Source: Methanoplanus limicola DSM 2279
GTDB lineage: Archaea > Halobacteriota > Methanomicrobia > Methanomicrobiales > Methanomicrobiaceae
Assembly (NCBI RefSeq): GCF_000243255.1
Contig: NZ_CM001436.1
Span: forward strand, 966,077-1,030,076
Direction of reading: 5' to 3'
Length of the DNA: 64,000 nucleotides
Positions 14,728 through 28,117 of the stretch are shown here, piece by piece (the stretch's first letter is position 1; each line of letters starts with the position of its first letter). The notes below the pieces were generated by a model. The model searched no databases. It saw nothing but the letters and a program-made list of their open reading frames with translations, and was not told where the DNA came from. A program made the position numbers and the translations under genes.

Positions 14728-17700
14728 TCACATAAAATCAGCAAGACCAAGCTGCTTCTCAGGCGGCTCACCAAACGTTGAGATAACCGCCATATTCAGC
14801 ACCTCAACTCTCTGCCGGGTATAAGCAGAAACTTTGTAATCTTCACACATCTTAAGCGACATATGGAGGTATTTCTTAACCGAACCCTCATGAACGGTGG
14901 CGATGAGCTTATTGCCGCACTTCGTGCATTTCCCTGCAAGAGGCATCCTCCTGTAACTTGAATTGCATTTCGTGCATCTGACCTTCTGCCTGGAATATGA
15001 ATTCAGATTTCCCATTATATCCCTGATAAAATGAGTATTCAAAACCCTCTCGGCAACATCATCCTCATCCACAGCACGGATAATTCTGCCCAGTTCAAGT
15101 TCAGCCTCAAGTTTATCAACCATAGAATGAAGTGTATTATATGAAGAGATCAGAGGACCGGCTGAGATATCAGTTGTGTTATGTGTAAACATAATCCCCT
15201 CGTACTGTTCAGGTTTACCAATACGAAGCTCAACATGGTCAACAATCTTCTCAAGATCCTTAGGGTGCACATAATCAAGGCCGGCGAGATACAGCTCAAG
15301 CGGATAAGAAGGACAGGCATCTACGTTATGACTCTCCTTGTCAACCTCAGCCGGGTCTATTCTCCGGGTCAGAACAAGAGGGGCATCCATCGATCCGCCC
15401 CTTGTTTCCGGCAGAAAAGACCGTGAAAAGTTGATAAGCCCGTCCAGAAGGAGCATCACGCAGTCCTCATCACCGTCACACTGTCCGGTAAAGATCCCGT
15501 TCACCTCGACAGTGTGGTCCTCAGAGACTGTCAGGCAGTAAACATAATCATCAGCACTGACAACCGGCTCTCTTTTGACAATCATATCCGGAATCATGGC
15601 CCCGCCTTCAAAACCGGGAATATAATCGCCCTCCTTTAACTCAAGCGCCTTAATCTTCCTCTGGTAATTAAGATCAGAGACAAGCATCGAATGCTCAGGT
15701 GTCACCATAATATTTTTGCCGCGCTGAGTCTCAAAATAAAGAAGAGTGTCCGGGGATTTATGAACGGAAACCGAGGTGACCTGCCTCATCCTGACATTCC
15801 CGTTCACATCGACAGCCCGAACCCAGTATGGCTTTACAGGGTCTGAATAATATGTCCCCACACAGTCAACGGATTTGCAGCTTACATCAAAATTTTCAAG
15901 GACAAATTTCTTTATCGGAAGAGTATCCCATCTCTGACCATCATAGACCGTAAGTTTAGTATCACCCTGAAAACAGTTCCTCCTCTTTGCAGCATGAAAG
16001 AACGGATGTCCATAGCCAACAAGTGCCTTTGTAAAGCCAATAAGCCTCACCAGCACACCTGCACTGGTATGAGGTGCAAGGCCCATCAGCAGGGATCCTA
16101 CAAGATCATCTCTCCTGGAGGCATTATAATACGGCTCCATACCGTAGACTTTCTCGAGCATTTCATCAACAAACTTTGAGACCTTGATGAGCCACTCTCC
16201 ACAATGCTCAGATACTAAAATATCCTGGCATTTAAGCTCAAGAATCTGTTCGTCAGATTCAAGGGGCTTACCATAGACATCATGGGTATATCCAAGTTCT
16301 AAAAGCCTCTGGTAACTGACCCCGATCTCACGCGGGATTATCTGGGTGAGGGGAAGGTCAATCATATCATACCGAAGTGTGCCGTCCTTAAAGACATAAA
16401 GGTCCTGTCTGGCTCTTAAAATTCCCTTCTCCAGTGCCTCAACACATCTCTCCTTTGACATCAGGCCCTTTACGCCCTTTACAAGTTTAAGTTCGGAATC
16501 ACGCATACCGAGCGCCTTTAATGCACGGTCATACTCATTCTTTACATTAATGGTAATAGTCTGTGCACAGACACCTTCAACCCCGCATACCGGACATACG
16601 CCCTTTACGACATCATGGCGGCATCTTGGGCAGACATAAACCGGCTCAGTATGTGTGCCACACTCACAGATATTAATATACGTCCGAAAACCACAGGAGG
16701 GGCATCTCCTCAGGCCTACTTCGGCGGTGATAAAACCACCGTCACGGTTATCTTTTGATTTTGCAACCTGCTGAAAAGATCTCCTCGAACCGCCCTCATT
16801 TCCGACAGGGTACAGCACATTGGGCGCAGGATTCATCTTCCTCTCCTTTGACTTGCCAGGTCTTCCCATCCTGCCGCCTATCCGTGTCCCGGCTTTTGAC
16901 CTCACCTTAAATCCGGAGAGATATGAGACAAGCTCAAGAGGATCTTCAGGATATTCCCCACCCGGAAATTCCTTTCTGTTCAGGCTGTCGTCAAGCCCGA
17001 GGCATGCAGTAAGAACTGCTGCATCCGAAATGACCAGATTTCCGGAGAGAACTTTATGGGGCAGGAGCAAAAGCTCCAGCAGCTCCTTTGTCCGTGCATT
17101 GTTGGGCAGGGTGAGAGTATCACCGGACATATTACCAAAACCGGATACAATATCTGAAAGCTCAAGAATGTCAGCCGCAGTCAGATCATCCCATATATAC
17201 ATAAAGTCAGGGTGAAGATACGCCCCTTCAAGTACCATATCAATGGCCTGCCTGCCGGAAACAGGGCGCTCTTTACCACCTTCAAGCACCCACCATTCAT
17301 GACAGTATGCAGACGGAATAAGAGTATGGTTATTCTCAAGAAACTCGCCATAAGAGACCAGAATTTCCCCGACATCAAGAATTCTCTCAACACTTTTCTC
17401 AAGTTTAATTGCTGTTGGTATGTCATCAACCCTCAGAACCTCTCCGGAATAAAGCCTGACAGTCGGACCTTCTATGGAATCAACCGGAACAACACCACAG
17501 GCTTTGCCGGGACGCTCAACCTTCATCTGTGTGCCCACCGCCAAAAAGTTGCCGAGCAGATGCAGGCCTGACGGGTTAAACCCTGCGGCAGCAAACCCGG
17601 TATTTCTTGAACGGCCATATCTCAGCCTGAAGCCGCCTGGCCTTAGTGGGTAGGAAAATACAGGCCTGCCGCCGACAAGGTCACGGATGTACTTGTCCTT

Positions 17701-18627
17701 CGGCTTGATTTTGCACTTCTTTGAGGAGTCAGCCTCTTCTTCTTCATCCTTCTCCTCCTCACCGCCTGAGGGCGCTGACGAGAATGACCCGGATATGATA
17801 TCATCAAGCCATTCCCAGCCCTCCATTTTTACCTTGCGCACAGTTTTCTGGATTTTAGGGGCCTTCAGCGCAAGACCTTCAGCCACAACAAGACCCATAC
17901 CGCCCCTTACAGTATTGGTCTCAATTCTCTCAAGATTCCTGTATCCGGAGACCTCAACACGTTCGGTAGGTTCGCCCTCAATACAGACAGGGCAGTTCCT
18001 GATGATATGCCTGAGTTCATCATCTGAAGGCATATACTGAAGGCTTGAGATAGAGTTGTACTTCTTAATCTCCTCGACATATCTCTCAACCTCCTCATTC
18101 CTTGGGATATATCGGCCGATGCCAAGACCTTTTCTGACATAATCCCCGACAAGAACAGAGAGGGCCTGCGCTGTTCCACCCGCACTACGGATAGGCCCAG
18201 CATAATAGATCTTTAAATATTCGGTCCCGTCATCATTTTTCCCGACGGCAATCTTACCGATACCTTCCGTAGGTGCGGCCACAACACCTTCGGTAAGAAG
18301 GGCCATTGATGTACGTATGGCATGGTCGAGGATCTCCTCCTTTGTCTCCTCACCAAACCTTCTGGCAATAAAATCATCACCTATCTTTAAGGAGACCTCT
18401 TCCCTGGACATCTCCTCCCCAAGTTCCCTAAGTCTTTTGGCAACGCCCGGATACCCCAAAAGTGCCTCCACCCTGTCGGCAAGGTCGCTCGCCACCGGAA
18501 TTTCAACATCAAGCGCGGGATCAATTCCGACCTTCCTTGCCTGTTTTGCTATTTCGATGGCCTTATAGAGGTCATCCTCAAGTGATTTGAAATAACTCTC
18601 CATCTCCGGTGATGCCTGCATAACCAT
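14728..18627 (-). CDS. polC: DNA polymerase II (PolD) large subunit DP2, intein-containing
   Basis: 1,299 residues, of which 165 are an intein, leaving a host protein of ~1,134, normal for DP2. DP2 is the catalytic subunit of the archaeal replicative polymerase PolD and works with DP1, which is not in this window. Visible landmarks: N-terminal [20 protein letters not shown]; zinc-binding pairs CPSCGF...CECG (~640-660) and CPRC...CPVCG (~663-680); catalytic-site segment NCDGDEDC re-formed by splicing; C-terminal zinc motif CTKC...CTKCG (~1213-1238); and a C-terminal [10 protein letters not shown] resembling a PCNA-binding PIP box. The intein splits the catalytic aspartate motif, so unspliced protein should be inactive. 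An acidic Glu/Asp-rich linker lies near ~290-305. Confidence 0.96.
15481..15975 (-). other. Mini-intein in PolD DP2 (165 residues, C-terminal Gln)
   Basis: The intein begins at Cys885 of the precursor ([13 protein letters not shown], block A), has the block B motif TPEH at intein residues 92-95, a block F-like segment [17 protein letters not shown], and ends IFTGQ before Cys of CDGDEDC. It is too short for a homing endonuclease and none of the LAGLIDADG motifs is visible. The last residue is Gln rather than Asn and the penultimate residue is Gly rather than His. C-terminal Gln is established for some archaeal PolII inteins that still splice. The insertion point is the classic one in DP2. Confidence 0.93.
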
Positions 18628-19534: not shown

Positions 19535-20095
19535 TCATCTGTAAGTATCAATTACAGATTCAACTTCTTCGGGCCTGTCTATGCCAATTCTCTGCAGTGT
19601 CAGAAGAGCGCACCTGTGAGCAACATCATCTGAATATTCGATAAACTCACTGAGGGGTTCGATAGCAGGCTCTCCGATTTTAATCAGGGCAAGTGAAGCA
19701 TAGCCCCTCATTTTCGCATCACCTGTAACAAAAAATGAGAGCAGTGCCTCTATAGCAGGTTCGCCAATGGTTCCAAGGGCAGATACTGCATATTTCCGGA
19801 CACTATCGTCCTCATAATCGTTCAGAATTTTTACAAGTAAAGGAATTGCAGGTTCACCAACTGATGCTAAAACATTTGCCGCATACCACCTGAAATCATT
19901 ATTATCGGTCTCCAGAAATGCATCAATAACCAAAGGAAGGCATTCTTCACCCATATCTGCCAGAAGAGAGACTGCACTTCTCTTCTCATCAAGTGTACCG
20001 CATTGAAGTCTCCTAATCAGCTCATCCACATTTTTTTTATCAGCCATATCAGAGAATTTAGTCATATAACAAGAATAAATATACAGTTTATGCAC
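19535..20095 (-). CDS. HEAT-repeat protein (PBS lyase type)
   Basis: Up to 186 residues, mostly short alpha-helical HEAT repeats of ~31 residues with the recurrent pattern IGEPAIEAL/VGEPAIPLL (for example ASVGEPAIPLLVKIL, GTIGEPAIEALLSFF, IKIGEPAIEPLSEFI). Such proteins act as protein-binding scaffolds; no partner can be named. The first 16 codons (MHKLYIYSCYMTKFSD) look unlike repeat sequence and contain a TATA-like TATATTTATT, so the true start may be ATG 20065 or 20047 (MADKKNVDELIRRL). Confidence 0.85.
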   Translation of the reverse strand: MHKLYIYSCYMTKFSDMADKKNVDELIRRLQCGTLDEKRSAVSLLADMGEECLPLVIDAFLETDNNDFRWYAANVLASVGEPAIPLLVKILNDYEDDSVRKYAVSALGTIGEPAIEALLSFFVTGDAKMRGYASLALIKIGEPAIEPLSEFIEYSDDVAHRCALLTLQRIGIDRPEEVESVIDTYR

Positions 20096-20213: not shown

Positions 20214-20558
20214 TTGCTGAGAATACCCTATATGATGGTCTCCGAATTGTATGGTTTTCAGGAGCCAGAAACCAGAAATGAAAGAACATTAACAGTTGAA
20301 GCATATATCTCCGGGAAAGTACAGGGTGTTGGTTTCAGGGCATGTGTCAAAAAAATTGCAGCCCATCTGTCACTTACCGGGGAAGTTATGAATATCGAAG
20401 ACGGAAGAGTATACCTGATTGTGACAGGGGAGGGTGTAATCATAGAAAAATTATTATCTACACTCTATGAATGCCCAAGAGCGCATGTACGTGAGATAGA
20501 ATCCAGGGAAACCGGACTGAGAACATTTTGTGATTTTTCAATAATCCGGAAAAAATGA
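20214..20558 (+). CDS. Acylphosphatase
   Basis: 114 residues from TTG 20214; ATG 20232 or 20235 are alternatives because the domain starts only near residue 25. The signature GKVQGVGFRACVKKIA holds the phosphate-binding loop and catalytic Arg (GFRACV), followed by LTGEVMNIEDGRVYLIVTGEG; the catalytic Asn is N59 or close to it. The enzyme hydrolyses carboxyl-phosphate bonds such as acetyl phosphate or carbamoyl phosphate. The family is ~90 residues, so the N-terminus is extended. It is convergent with the cas1-like gene (44 bases between stops). Confidence 0.9.
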   Translation: MLRIPYMMVSELYGFQEPETRNERTLTVEAYISGKVQGVGFRACVKKIAAHLSLTGEVMNIEDGRVYLIVTGEGVIIEKLLSTLYECPRAHVREIESRETGLRTFCDFSIIRKK

Positions 20559-20602: not shown

Positions 20603-21538
20603 TCAGTAATAAACTCTGAAAGGGGTTTTTTTCACCAGATGATCCACATATGAAGAGACTGTAAAATCAATTCTCTTCTGGTCTATTGATTTATGAAGGC
20701 AGTCTGAGAGAACTGCCAGCAGGTCGTCCTTTAAATGACATCTTTTTGTGCTGAGCTCATAATGATCCGGGTTCAGATATTCCCTTGAAACCCTGAAAAC
20801 AGCAGAATCCACCATACCTGACTTTAAAGGAGCCATTATATCATTCACGAGCGAACCTGTGCCCTCTGAGAGAACACCATGGTCCGGGCTTAGATAAGAG
20901 CCTGCAACAGAGAGACTGACATTACCAAAAAGCATAGCATAACCTATAGAGAGCATAGCATTCACAGGATCATTATGGGGCCTTTTTGTGCGTCTCTTAA
21001 AGCCATGAACCGGGTTAATTCCCCTTGATACGACCTCATAATACATATCTGAGACAAGCCTGTGAAGCCTGCGGAGTTCTTCTATCTTTACAAGATAGTC
21101 AACATCTTCAAGTGATTTCAGGAATAGTTCGTGTTCTCCTTCATAAAATAAAACCCGCCCGGCTTCCCTCATAACCTCATCAATGAGATTCATCCTTGAT
21201 TTGAGTGAAGAGCGGACAATCTCAGAAGCTGCGTGATAAACAGGCGTTTTCCTCTGAAAATTCTCCATATTTTCGCGGCTTTCATCACCATAAGGGCTGA
21301 GAATACCCAGTGGAGATGCATCTGCATCAAAAAATGATATTGAGGATTTCTGTTTCAGAAGATTGGATACTGCGGAAGTATGCAGATTATGCCCGCCCAC
21401 CAGGAGGAGATGACCAACCTTTTCAAGAGGGATTTCCCTGAGATCACTCTTCTGCCGGATAGAAAGGGTTGTGGACGAAGCTTTAATATGTGCCCCAAAT
21501 CCAAAAACCGAGTGCCAGGGTATTGTAACTTTCTCCAT
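20603..21538 (-). CDS. cas1: Stand-alone Cas1-family integrase/endonuclease (Cas1-solo)
   Basis: 311 residues, the usual length for Cas1. The N-terminal beta domain has LREIPLEKVGHLLLVGGHNL and VSNLLKQKSSISFFDADASPLGIL. The helical domain has KRRTKRPHNDPVNAMLSIGYAMLFG, SYLSPDHGVLSEGTGSLVNDIMAPLK and SAVFRVSREYL. Putative metal ligands are E153 (in VKIEELRRLHR), H220 (PDHG) and D233 (VNDIM), so the enzyme looks intact. In CRISPR systems Cas1 works with Cas2 to integrate spacers. Here no cas2, other cas gene, repeat array, PolB or casposon terminal repeat is visible. Cas1-solo proteins outside casposons are known in methanogens, with unknown function. Neighbours are an acylphosphatase and an amino-acid transporter, giving no hint. 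Confidence 0.92.
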   Translation of the reverse strand: MEKVTIPWHSVFGFGAHIKASSTTLSIRQKSDLREIPLEKVGHLLLVGGHNLHTSAVSNLLKQKSSISFFDADASPLGILSPYGDESRENMENFQRKTPVYHAASEIVRSSLKSRMNLIDEVMREAGRVLFYEGEHELFLKSLEDVDYLVKIEELRRLHRLVSDMYYEVVSRGINPVHGFKRRTKRPHNDPVNAMLSIGYAMLFGNVSLSVAGSYLSPDHGVLSEGTGSLVNDIMAPLKSGMVDSAVFRVSREYLNPDHYELSTKRCHLKDDLLAVLSDCLHKSIDQKRIDFTVSSYVDHLVKKTPFRVYY

Positions 21539-21798: not shown

Positions 21799-22602
21799 AT
21801 GAACAGAAAGGTTTATGGAATACTTCTTATTCTGTTAGCTGTGTCAGCAGTTGCATTCTCCGGATGTACCGGTAATGCACCTGCCGAAACCGGAGATTCC
21901 GGACAGTCCGGGACAGCAGAGGAAAAAACGGTCTATGTAGTTGGTATTGACGGAGAATATCCTCCTTACTCATTAATTGATAAAGACGGCGGCGCAACCG
22001 GATTTGATGTCGAATCAGTTCAGTGGATCGCTGATGACATGGGCTTTGAAGTAGAGATAAAGCCGATCGCATGGGACGGTATTATTCCGGCACTTCAGGC
22101 AGGAAAGATTGACATGGTCTATTCAGGAATGACAATCACAGACGAGAGACTTGAGAAAGTGAACTTCTCGATTCCGTACCTGAAGATCAACCAGTCCGTT
22201 GCAGTGCATGATGACAATGAATTCACACTTGATCAGTTTAAGGCAGGAGAGCTTATTGTAGGTGCACAGAGAGGAACAACAGGACAGATCTGGGCTGAGG
22301 AGAACCTCGTAAATAAAGGCCTGATTCCGGCAGAAAATCTCAAGACATATGACAACTTCCCGCTTGTCATCGAGGACCTTAAAAACAAGAGAATTGACGC
22401 AGCAATCTATGACAGACCTTCAATGATTGCAGCAATCGAAGAGAAGCCAATCCACATAACAGGCGAGATTGACACAGGAGAGGAGTATGGAGTCGCAATC
22501 AGAAAGGACGACGTAGCACTTCTCGAAACAATCAACAACGGCCTTGCAAAACTTCACAAGGATCAGAAGTGGACTGAGCTTAAGGAAAAATACGGCCTTT
22601 AA
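21799..22602 (+). CDS. Polar amino-acid ABC transporter, substrate-binding lipoprotein
   Basis: 267 residues. Signal peptide with lipobox FSGC (Cys ~23), then an acidic linker and an SBP_bac_3 domain (VGIDGEYPPYSLIDKDG, GFDVESVQWIAD, AGKIDMVYSGMTITDERLEKVNFS, RGTTGQIWAEENL, DAAIYDRPSM, EYGVAIRKDD). It should be anchored outside the membrane by its N-terminal Cys and deliver amino acids to the permeases at 22751 and 24199. First gene of a four-gene operon. The protein at 27317-28117 is a close paralogue. Ligand specificity cannot be read from the sequence. Confidence 0.94.
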   Translation: MNRKVYGILLILLAVSAVAFSGCTGNAPAETGDSGQSGTAEEKTVYVVGIDGEYPPYSLIDKDGGATGFDVESVQWIADDMGFEVEIKPIAWDGIIPALQAGKIDMVYSGMTITDERLEKVNFSIPYLKINQSVAVHDDNEFTLDQFKAGELIVGAQRGTTGQIWAEENLVNKGLIPAENLKTYDNFPLVIEDLKNKRIDAAIYDRPSMIAAIEEKPIHITGEIDTGEEYGVAIRKDDVALLETINNGLAKLHKDQKWTELKEKYGL

Positions 22603-22750
22603 CCGTAAAAATCAAACTTAACTTTTTTAAAAATATAACTAAATAAAAATCTGTCCGAAATCGGCAGAATAAATAAGTATTAGGTAAAAAACAGAGATAA
22701 TGTTGTACCGGAATTATAGCTATCAGTTTTGGTACCGGGAATAATCGGGC

Positions 22751-23434
22751 ATGGATGCAATATCTATACTAATAGACTGGCTGCCGTATCTCCTATCCGG
22801 AATAATTGTCACAATGGGCCTTGTCGCCGCAGGACTTGGAATAGGTGTTCTTCTTGGTCTGCCGATGGCACTCGGACAGGTATATTCAAAATGGCCGGTC
22901 AGGGCCGCAATAGGCGTTTATGTATGGTTCTTCAGGGGCCTTCCTGTTCTTGTTCTTCTCTTTCTGTTTTACTTCGGTCTCTTCCCTGCAATTGGACTTG
23001 GAGATATGCCGGCGTTTTTCGTCGGAGCAACAGTGCTTGGGCTCAGAGGGGCCGCATATCAGTCGCAGATATTCAGAGGAGCTATTCAGTCGATAAGCGA
23101 CGGGCAGATGACAGCCGCAAGATCACTTGGAATGAGCAGATTTACAGCTATAAAATCAATAATTCTGCCTCAGTCAGTACGAATTGCACTTCCGGGATGG
23201 TCAAATGAATATCCGAATATTCTCACAGATTCAGCAGTCTGCTATGCCATCGGTGTAATGGAATTAATCACAAGAACCTCACAGATAGTCTCACAGACAT
23301 ACCTTACAATGCCAATCTACATTGCCTGCGCCGGAGTATTCATCCTATTAAATTATGCAGGTATGAAAGGACTCTACATACTTGAGAACAGGCTGGCGAT
23401 ACCTGGTTTTGGCGGAAACAGCGGGGAAGTATAA
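22751..23434 (+). CDS. Amino-acid ABC transporter permease
   Basis: 227 residues with about five hydrophobic segments and the HisMQ-family motif region SISDGQMTAARSLGMSRFTAIKSIILPQ, the EAA loop that docks to the ATPase. A 148-base gap after the binding-protein gene contains an AT-rich stretch and two GTACCGG copies, and may lower expression of the distal genes relative to the binding protein. Four bases separate it from the ATPase gene. Confidence 0.93.
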   Translation: MDAISILIDWLPYLLSGIIVTMGLVAAGLGIGVLLGLPMALGQVYSKWPVRAAIGVYVWFFRGLPVLVLLFLFYFGLFPAIGLGDMPAFFVGATVLGLRGAAYQSQIFRGAIQSISDGQMTAARSLGMSRFTAIKSIILPQSVRIALPGWSNEYPNILTDSAVCYAIGVMELITRTSQIVSQTYLTMPIYIACAGVFILLNYAGMKGLYILENRLAIPGFGGNSGEV

Positions 23435-23437
23435 ATT

Positions 23438-24187
23438 ATGTCAGACAATGATTATATCCTTAGAATAGAAGATATTCATAAAAAATACGGAAATAATGAA
23501 GTATTAAAAGGCGTCTCACTCGATGTAAAAAAAGGTGAGACGATCGTCTTCATAGGATCTTCGGGTACAGGCAAGAGTACTTTATTAAGGTGCATAAACC
23601 AGCTTACACCACCAGAAAAAGGGAGAGTATTTCTTAATGGTGAAGAGGTCACAAATTCCGGGAAGAGAATAAATAATTTCAGGCAGAAGATCGGTATGGT
23701 CTTTCAGAATTTTTACCTCTTTGACCACTTAACGGCAATCAGAAATGTTGAGATCGCCTTAATCAAAGTACGCGGGATGAAACCCGATGAGGCAAGAGAG
23801 AAAGCCATGAATGAACTCCGCCAGGTCGGAATGGAAGACTGGGCAGATCATTATCCTGCGGAACTTTCCGGAGGTCAGGCGCAGCGGGTCTCAATCGCAC
23901 GTGCACTTGCAATGGATCCTGATGTAATACTCTTTGATGAACCGACATCGGCACTTGATCCTGAACTCACAAGGGAGGTTTTGGAGGTCATGAAGAAGCT
24001 GGCAAAAGACGGGATGACAATGCTTGTCGTAACCCACGAGATGGGATTTGCACAATCGGTTGCGAACAGGATTATATTTATGGAAGAAGGAAAGATCCTT
24101 GAGGAGGGCACACCTGAAGAGATCATGAACAATCCTAAATCCGAGAGGACAAAGAGTTTTATCGGGCAGTTTAATAGCGGATACTAA
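23438..24187 (+). CDS. Amino-acid ABC transporter ATP-binding protein
   Basis: 249 residues. Walker [10 protein letters not shown] at 40-48, Q-loop in [15 protein letters not shown] signature LSGGQAQRV, Walker [13 protein letters not shown], and the H-loop in VVTHEMGFA. It matches the GlnQ/HisP class that energises polar amino-acid import. It lies between the two permease genes, starting four bases after the first and ending eleven bases before the second, with ATG preceded by GGGGAAG. Confidence 0.95.
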
Positions 24188-24198
24188 GGGAGGTATAA

Positions 24199-24867
24199 AT
24201 GGACCAGATGACATTTATTGCAGAAATTCTGATGCCGGCACTGATCGGCGGACTTGTAATTACGCTTCAGCTCATTGCGCTGTCCGCACCTTTCGGACTC
24301 CTTGGAGGAATAGGAGTTGCTGTAGGGAGGACATACGGGGGGCGTTATACAGTAATCTTCTGCAAGGCCTATGTCACATTCATCAAAGGGTGCCCGCTTT
24401 TACTTCTGCTGTTTATTCTGTACTTCGGCCTGCCTTCAGTCGGCATCACACTCACTGCCTTTGTGGCATCAATAACCGGATTTATACTGTGCAATTCAGC
24501 TTACAGTTCAGAGTATATCCGCGGTTCGATGAAATCGATACGGGAAGGTCAGTTGATTGCCGCAAGAGCGCTCGGCATGACAGAAAGGCAGGTAATTGTA
24601 AATATTGTACTCCCACAGGCACTCAGAAGAGCAATTCCCGGACTATCCAATGAATTCATCTACCTGATAAAATATTCGTCACTTGCATATATGCTCACAG
24701 TAATAGAGCTTACAGGTGCAGGAAAACTTGTGGCTACAAAATATTTCGCATACAATGAGGCATTTATAATGGTCGGTGCAGTCTATCTTCTGCTTGTGAC
24801 TATAACAACATTCGGTGCAAATATGCTTGAAAAGAAGTATGCAATACCCGGAACCAGCGGGCGCTGA
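24199..24867 (+). CDS. Amino-acid ABC transporter permease, second subunit
   Basis: 222 residues with about five membrane segments and the EAA-type loop SIREGQLIAARALGMTERQVIVNIVLPQALRRA (read in two parts). Together with the permease at 22751-23434 it probably forms a heterodimeric pore. ATG start preceded by GGGAGG. It is the last gene of the operon; an inverted AATTAATCATTAATTTTTT tract follows the stop and may terminate transcription. Confidence 0.93.
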   Translation: MDQMTFIAEILMPALIGGLVITLQLIALSAPFGLLGGIGVAVGRTYGGRYTVIFCKAYVTFIKGCPLLLLLFILYFGLPSVGITLTAFVASITGFILCNSAYSSEYIRGSMKSIREGQLIAARALGMTERQVIVNIVLPQALRRAIPGLSNEFIYLIKYSSLAYMLTVIELTGAGKLVATKYFAYNEAFIMVGAVYLLLVTITTFGANMLEKKYAIPGTSGR

Positions 24868-27316: not shown

Positions 27317-28117
27317 TCAGGCAAGTTTATACTTCTCAATAAGTTCTTTCCAGTATGGGTCTGCCATAAGCATATCAAGACCGTCATTGAGTGCGTTAAG
27401 AAGTCTTACATCGTCCTTCCGGACAGCAATTCCGTACTCTTCATCTGTCTGAATTGTACCGAGCATGACAACATCATCCTTTTCAGCGATAATGTCCTTT
27501 ACTACCGGAGTATCGTACATTGCTGCATCAATTCTCTTGTTTTCAAGATCTGAAACTGCAAGTGGGAAATTGTCATAGAGTTTGAGGTTATCCTCAGGCA
27601 TAAGTTCTGTCTTAATGAGGTTTGTTTCAATCCACTCTGCTGCTGTTGAACCTCTCTGTGCACCGCAGACAACCTTTCCGGCTTTATAGTCATCAAGTGT
27701 TATTTCAGAGTCTGCCCTTACAGCAACTGCCTGATTTGCAACCCAGTATGGCTTTGAGAAGTTTACTTTCTCAAGTCTCTCGTCTGTGATTGTCATTCCT
27801 GAATAGACCATGTCAATCTTTCCTGCCTGAAGTGCCGGAATAATACCGTCCCATGCCATTGGCTGAATCTCAACATCGAAACCTTTCTTATCAGCAATCC
27901 ATTTAATTGACTCAACATCAAAACCTGTGGGGTTTCCGTCTTTGTCAATGTATGAGTACGGAGGATATTCGCCGTCAATTCCGACAATGTACTTGACATC
28001 AATAATTGTCACTTTCTCTACAACAGGAACTGTCTCATCCGCACCGGTGCAACCTGCAATGGCAACTGCCATTACAGCAAGCGCGAGCATAAAAACAGTA
28101 GTAAACTTTCTGTCCAT
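27317..28117 (-). CDS. Orphan amino-acid substrate-binding lipoprotein, paralogue of 21799 gene
   Basis: 266 residues with lipobox IAGC (Cys ~22) and an SBP_bac_3 domain. Long stretches are identical to the operon-encoded paralogue (WDGIIPALQAGKIDMVYSG, MTITDERLEKVNFS), but ligand-region positions differ (KPYWVANQAVAVRADSE; DTPVVKDII). It has no permease or ATPase beside it, so it may feed the 22751-24867 transporter with a different ligand or serve the nearby histidine kinase as a sensor. It is transcribed alone and oppositely to its neighbours. Confidence 0.92.
   Translation of the reverse strand: MDRKFTTVFMLALAVMAVAIAGCTGADETVPVVEKVTIIDVKYIVGIDGEYPPYSYIDKDGNPTGFDVESIKWIADKKGFDVEIQPMAWDGIIPALQAGKIDMVYSGMTITDERLEKVNFSKPYWVANQAVAVRADSEITLDDYKAGKVVCGAQRGSTAAEWIETNLIKTELMPEDNLKLYDNFPLAVSDLENKRIDAAMYDTPVVKDIIAEKDDVVMLGTIQTDEEYGIAVRKDDVRLLNALNDGLDMLMADPYWKELIEKYKLA

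Follow-up and report, generated by a model that had tools for sequence, protein, structure and literature searches.

We analyzed a gene found on the reverse strand at positions 20603..21538 of a 64-kb stretch of DNA (the window), which encodes a 311-residue Cas1 homologue with a degenerate active site. As far as its sequence can tell, this Cas1-solo is a domesticated pseudo-Cas1 and not a working integrase, and we hold both its domestication and its loss of catalysis to be highly probable. The open reading frame is a member of the Cas1 superfamily, by its significant matches to the profiles TIGR00287 (E=2.3e-29, above the cut-off) and PF01867 (E=7.6e-43) and to PADLOC Cas1 (E=1.7e-38), and by its AlphaFold2 model (pLDDT 95, pTM 0.90), which displays the full Cas1 fold. 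A preliminary description of this DNA had proposed a Cas1 protein here, and the homologue is indeed full-length and occupies exactly these coordinates. Foldseek matches the model to Cas1 and casposase structures, with TM-scores not exceeding 0.81 among the matches listed. The best solved-structure match, in sequence as well as in fold, is the Cas1 from Archaeoglobus fulgidus (4N06), a CRISPR Cas1 with reported nucleolytic activity that, unlike the window protein, has a full metal site.

The metal-ligand columns were located in an alignment that combined 61 orthologues and CRISPR Cas1s from their own order. They correspond to residues 159 (the Glu of the CRISPR Cas1 motif LRGIEG), 224 (the His of GFLH), 233 and 236 of the window protein; the equivalent residues of the M. 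mazei casposase have been named E162, H232 and E247 (PMC6977970), the latter falling in column 236. All four letters E/H/D/E are present in 29/29 sequences of our CRISPR-type comparison set, two members of which, L102 and L103, proved to be casposases, versus only one (L061) of the 114 distinct solo orthologues. The window protein reads H/S/D/A. Its codons, all on the reverse strand, specify a His in the catalytic Glu column (codon 159, 21062..21064; E in 29/29 CRISPR Cas1), a Ser in the catalytic His column (codon 224, 20867..20869; H in 29/29) and an Ala in the second acidic ligand column (codon 236, 20831..20833; E in 29/29). The sole catalytic-column residue kept is the Asp of codon 233 (20840..20842), found in 114/114 solos and 29/29 CRISPR Cas1. 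Among the 114 solos, residue 159 is H in 68, F in 12, E in 9, Q in 7, S in 6 and another residue in 12; residue 224 is H in 46/114; residue 236 is D in 51, E in 51, N in 9 and A in 3.

The protein had previously been thought to be catalytically able, with E153, H220 and D233 as its likely metal ligands. D233 does lie in a ligand column, but E153 and H220 are six and four residues away from the true ones, the first in a column where the solo family displays E/D/P/Q/S/K and the second at a nearly unconstrained position. Since this protein has kept one catalytic position out of four and 113/114 orthologues are deprived of the full set, we do not retain this claim, nor the suggestion that the protein performs DNA integration or branch cleavage. 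That the solo Cas1 would have lost the residues required for cutting or joining DNA is, on the contrary, well supported. As for L061, its three genus-mates lack the His and have N or K in that column, and it is placed inside the solo clade in a tree that includes casposases; a chance match to E/H/D/E is therefore likelier, and we rejected the possibility of an active site ancestrally retained in this genus.

One could assume that the active site has been shifted rather than lost, D233 and other invariant acids or histidines (e.g. D190, E168, H50 and H43) forming a new metal site that would cleave branched DNA. Such an enzyme would account for the invariance of D233 and of many acidic or His positions, and the E/H/D/E of L061 could be quoted in its favour. 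However, columns 159, 224 and 236 have changed at least 16, 18 and 12 times, respectively, on a tree of 60 solos, with no consistent replacement, and ordinary Cas1 conserves D190 and D244 to about the same degree, so that they need not belong to a new site. We regard this explanation as improbable. On the same tree, columns 157, 168 and 233 show zero changes.

The solo gene is nevertheless not decaying. Orthologues were found in 217/232 Methanomicrobiales genomes, that is in 133 of the 135 high-quality genomes for this order and in 38 of its 40 genera. Cas2 was detected in 68 of these 135 genomes, and since neither of the two that lack the solo gene (G093 and G160) is Cas2-positive, the gene is present in 68/68 Cas2-positive and 65/67 Cas2-negative genomes. 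It is thus a single-copy core gene of Methanomicrobiales, present with or without Cas2, and the dN/dS ratios of 0.06-0.28 obtained for 14 measurable solo pairs indicate purifying selection. It is also confined to this order as one clade. The solo profile gives 328-471 bits inside the order, the best score outside being 159 bits among 393 genomes of the phylum, and when 84,980 genomes of named species were scanned with a solo-motif profile, a relative was encoded at 153 places, the best 80 of these 153 matches coming from Methanomicrobiales or from MAGs labelled just Euryarchaeota. A match in the genome contigs was given by this profile scan and not by a single-protein scan. The earlier proposal that this Cas1 is maintained on its own, independently of CRISPR, is supported by dN/dS, by the 133/135 genomes and by the presence of the gene without Cas2, though not as an intact enzyme.

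Cas1-solo group 1 was reportedly recognised by Makarova in 2013. The group was described by Krupovic in 2014 as restricted to Methanomicrobiales, located outside CRISPR loci, endowed with an incomplete active site and showing no sign of horizontal transfer (PMC4046053). By its order range, its non-CRISPR context and its incomplete catalytic set, the window protein appears to fit this group, from which we found no difference save the 1/114 orthologues with all four catalytic letters. It had been fairly presented as part of a poorly understood system, yet one described since 2013-2014 as Cas1-solo group 1 (PMC4046053); what is new here is the universality of the gene in the order, its selection, its residue set and its neighbourhood. 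A later paper considered group 1 solo proteins as probably vestigial (PMC9755687). Our data agree with what Krupovic described and contradict the vestigial view. The loss of catalytic residues is what one would expect from a vestigial, decaying cas1, but open frames in 133/135 high-quality genomes, the dN/dS values and many invariant positions are not, and a pseudogene or vestige is ruled out by the near-universal presence of the gene and its dN/dS of 0.06-0.28; we give this reading practically no credence.

The host genome is one 3.2-Mb contig whose sole cas1 is the window gene: it contains no second Cas1, no Cas2 and no match to the RAMP superfamily or to Cas3-HD. An orphan of an adaptation module was consequently ruled out, the genome being without Cas2. 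Neither a CRISPR array nor a tandem CRISPR-like repeat was found within the 64-kb window, and no array was detected in the neighbourhoods of cas1-solo genes, the array scan having been positive in almost every CRISPR locus of the control. Close to the solo cas1 of genome G056, we observed a regular 48-bp repeat (L053, position ~8883), which is probably not CRISPR in view of its constant spacing. No exact inverted repeat of at least 14 bp, the shortest class covered by the search, spans cas1-solo within 15 kb on each side, and a family-B polymerase (PolB) is absent among the conserved neighbours of the gene, DP2 near the window gene being the cellular family-D polymerase and not a family-B one. 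The preliminary description had depicted a Cas1 without cas partners, array, PolB or casposon inverted repeat in the window, and our scans, which covered Cas2, RAMP and Cas3-HD among the cas partners and exact inverted repeats of 14 bp or longer, agree with it; the search for cas2 in the rest of the genome, which it had advised, likewise gave none.

One would also wonder whether the solo protein could be a dominant-negative regulator of active Cas1s, of CRISPR or casposon origin, acting via mixed dimers or by occupation of their target sites. Solo, casposase and CRISPR Cas1 do meet in some genomes, for example in G109 (L037, L127 and L104, respectively). On the other hand, the solo gene is present in 65/67 genomes without Cas2 and the host genome has no other Cas1 to be regulated, which makes this role very improbable in our opinion.

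In our phylogeny, the solos are monophyletic (support 100/100) and their inner branching mostly follows families. The nearest Cas1s are type III CRISPR-associated proteins (L112-L118 and L124, support 92/75), whose genes adjoin arrays and Cmr2, Cmr1, Cmr3 or other type III genes, with Cas2 next door in several cases. These type III Cas1s have their fold and scaffold residues in common with the solos. They differ in that those examined lie beside Cas10/RAMP genes, Cas2 or Cas2-sized genes and arrays, whereas the solos are outside CRISPR loci, and in that they keep the E/H/D/E set (29/29 in the comparison set) that the solos do not. The solos probably descend from a type III CRISPR Cas1. Seven casposase-type Cas1s, used as a control set, form a separate clade (100/100) and 6/7 are near a PolB-like gene. 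A tree in which solos and casposases are sisters was not rejected by the AU test (p=0.20), so that descent from type III is likely rather than proven. Placing the gene among Cas1s including casposases, as had been advised, yields a solo clade of its own.

The casposase (Cas1-solo group 2; M. mazei 6OPM) resembles the solos by its Cas1 fold (TM 0.81 to 6opm_B) and by a gene that also sits outside CRISPR loci. However, the casposases found here are ~400 residues long with a C-terminal extension, and the solos have neither this extension nor PolB; the strict conservation of catalytic residues expected of a casposase is not seen in the solos (1/114 complete); and no casposon terminal inverted repeat of at least 14 bp, counted as exact, was found at the window solo locus. 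A casposon was hence ruled out on PolB, inverted repeats and catalytic residues, the sisterhood with casposases in the tree standing at AU p=0.20. Two Methanomicrobiales genomes, G109 and G158, carry the solo gene plus a casposase-type Cas1 (L127 and L128, respectively, 407-413 residues), and a PolB-like gene lies a few kb from the latter; against the M. mazei casposase structure 6OPM, L127 gives E=7e-179. Weak Cas1 matches at L104-L111, considered as another solo group, are better read as the usual Cas1 of array-bearing operons of I-E-like type, a subtype assigned from gene layout and sequence rather than from a model search.

The most conserved neighbour of cas1-solo is a convergent acylphosphatase gene (20214..20558, forward strand; PF00708, E=7.5e-17), which lies tail-to-tail with it in 43 loci from 26 genera. 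The 3' ends of the two genes overlap in 24/43 loci, and since such an overlap alone can preserve gene order, this pairing is no proof of a functional link, for which we make no claim. The literature gave nothing useful on this link or on solo expression. In the window's own family, the conserved neighbours also include a HEAT-repeat protein (19535..20095, reverse strand; from neighbourhood and Pfam comparison), thymidylate synthase and the DNA polymerase D large subunit. Farther away are two phenylacetate-CoA-ligase-like genes, one ACT-domain-like and one phosphoglucosamine-mutase-like gene, all named by eye from their sequences, as well as MobB, DUF5806 and a 1,190-residue protein without Pfam match. 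No partner gene is co-transcribed with cas1-solo throughout. Altogether, these surroundings look like stable chromosomal housekeeping synteny and not like a mobile or defence island, which is what the comparison of conserved neighbours across genomes, also advised beforehand, brings out with the acylphosphatase of 43 loci.

The protein of ~1,190 residues (L077:5568-9152 and family members), which has no Pfam match and looks like an alpha-helical repeat protein, is encoded ~2.5 kb from cas1-solo and occurs near the acylphosphatase in 14 genera, and the DUF5806 protein (L074:7278-7895) recurs near cas1-solo in 18 genera. In the window, the DNA polymerase D large subunit (14728-18627, reverse strand) carries in its catalytic domain an insert whose match to the splicing domain of inteins is weak and falls short of the Pfam cut-off. 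Positions 21799-24867 hold a cassette for an ABC transporter of the amino-acid type, made up of an ATPase, a binding protein and two permeases, and a second, similar binding-protein gene is found at 27317-28117 on the other strand from this cassette.

The solo clade has a conserved set of its own, consisting of E154, R157, MYYE 165-168, R172 and R182/R183, and 19 columns are invariant in 60 aligned solo orthologues, several of them being peculiar to the clade. A first solo-specific element is the helix segment E154-R157...MYYE(165-168)...R172 (21023..21079, reverse strand). R157, which stands in place of a Gly two residues ahead of the lost Glu, is found with Y166, E168 and R172 in 114/114 solos, and E154 in 111/114. 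Solos show little or no variation at MYYE, R172 and R182, which vary in CRISPR Cas1s, where the column of E168 is among the more variable ones; Y166 is common to both. A second element is the solo-conserved basic loop K181-R182-R183-T-K-R186 (20981..20998, reverse strand), in which residues 181, 182 and 183 are K or R in 93, 97 and 100% of solos. The solos also retain R183, D190, N193, Y200, D233 and D244, which Cas1s in general conserve.

What this protein binds may be approached through its charges. Conserved basic columns are found in solos at 115, 156, 157, 172, 181-183, 239 and 266, and over the same region of CRISPR Cas1 mainly at 183 and 239. Residue 239, matched by hand from alignments, is the position of casposase R250, which contacts the DNA phosphate backbone (PMC6977970), and this position was counted, together with the conserved basic columns, in favour of nucleic-acid binding. 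On the other hand, the catalytic domain is acidic in solos (net charge about -2.8 per 100 residues) and basic in CRISPR Cas1s (+1.7), which makes DNA binding of a broad kind less likely and is compatible with a protein or a small ligand as the partner. We infer that DNA binding could be the actual activity of the solo protein, a proposal to which we give a little less than even weight. Another hypothesis is that DNA handling has been lost altogether, the invariant helix face (E154, R157, E168 and R172) being a protein interface of a non-catalytic scaffold, or the pocket binding a phosphorylated metabolite. The acidic catalytic domain, the invariant charged residues where CRISPR Cas1 varies (e.g. 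at 168) and the metabolic nature of conserved neighbours including the acylphosphatase could be understood in this way. But R183, D190, N193, Y200, D233 and D244 are all kept as across Cas1s, and the convergent orientation of the acylphosphatase does not imply co-transcription; we find this hypothesis rather unlikely.

The explanation that we favour, as a whole with reasonable though limited confidence, is that of a domesticated, vertically inherited, non-catalytic and probably dimeric scaffold. A former CRISPR-type integrase would have been domesticated by the ancestor of Methanomicrobiales and then passed down vertically as a single-copy core gene. As in other Cas1s, its two-domain body would form dimers through the N-terminal beta domain. 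What was once the metal pocket, which conserved Arg/Lys now flank and in which His often takes the place of Glu, could hold DNA, or else a protein or some other partner bearing phosphate, and leave it uncut. As the catalytic residues are lost and yet selection is nearly order-wide, a non-cutting housekeeping job is most likely, which might be, for example, the recognition of DNA structures in repair or replication. More tentatively still, one could propose that this captured integrase, having lost its catalytic metal site, is now an indispensable chromosomal protein such as a DNA-structure-binding or genome-maintenance factor.

If true, this would be the first housekeeping role for Cas1 beyond adaptation and transposition. 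Group 1 solos have been set aside since 2014 because they look inactive, and the present gene belongs to the core of a major methanogen order, being found, and kept by purifying selection, in ~98% of its genomes of good quality, of which half have no Cas2. It thus provides a clearly delimited example of exaptation of a Cas protein to a non-immune, non-transposon job, with R157, E168, R172 and R182/R183 as residues that may be mutated to find out what this job is.
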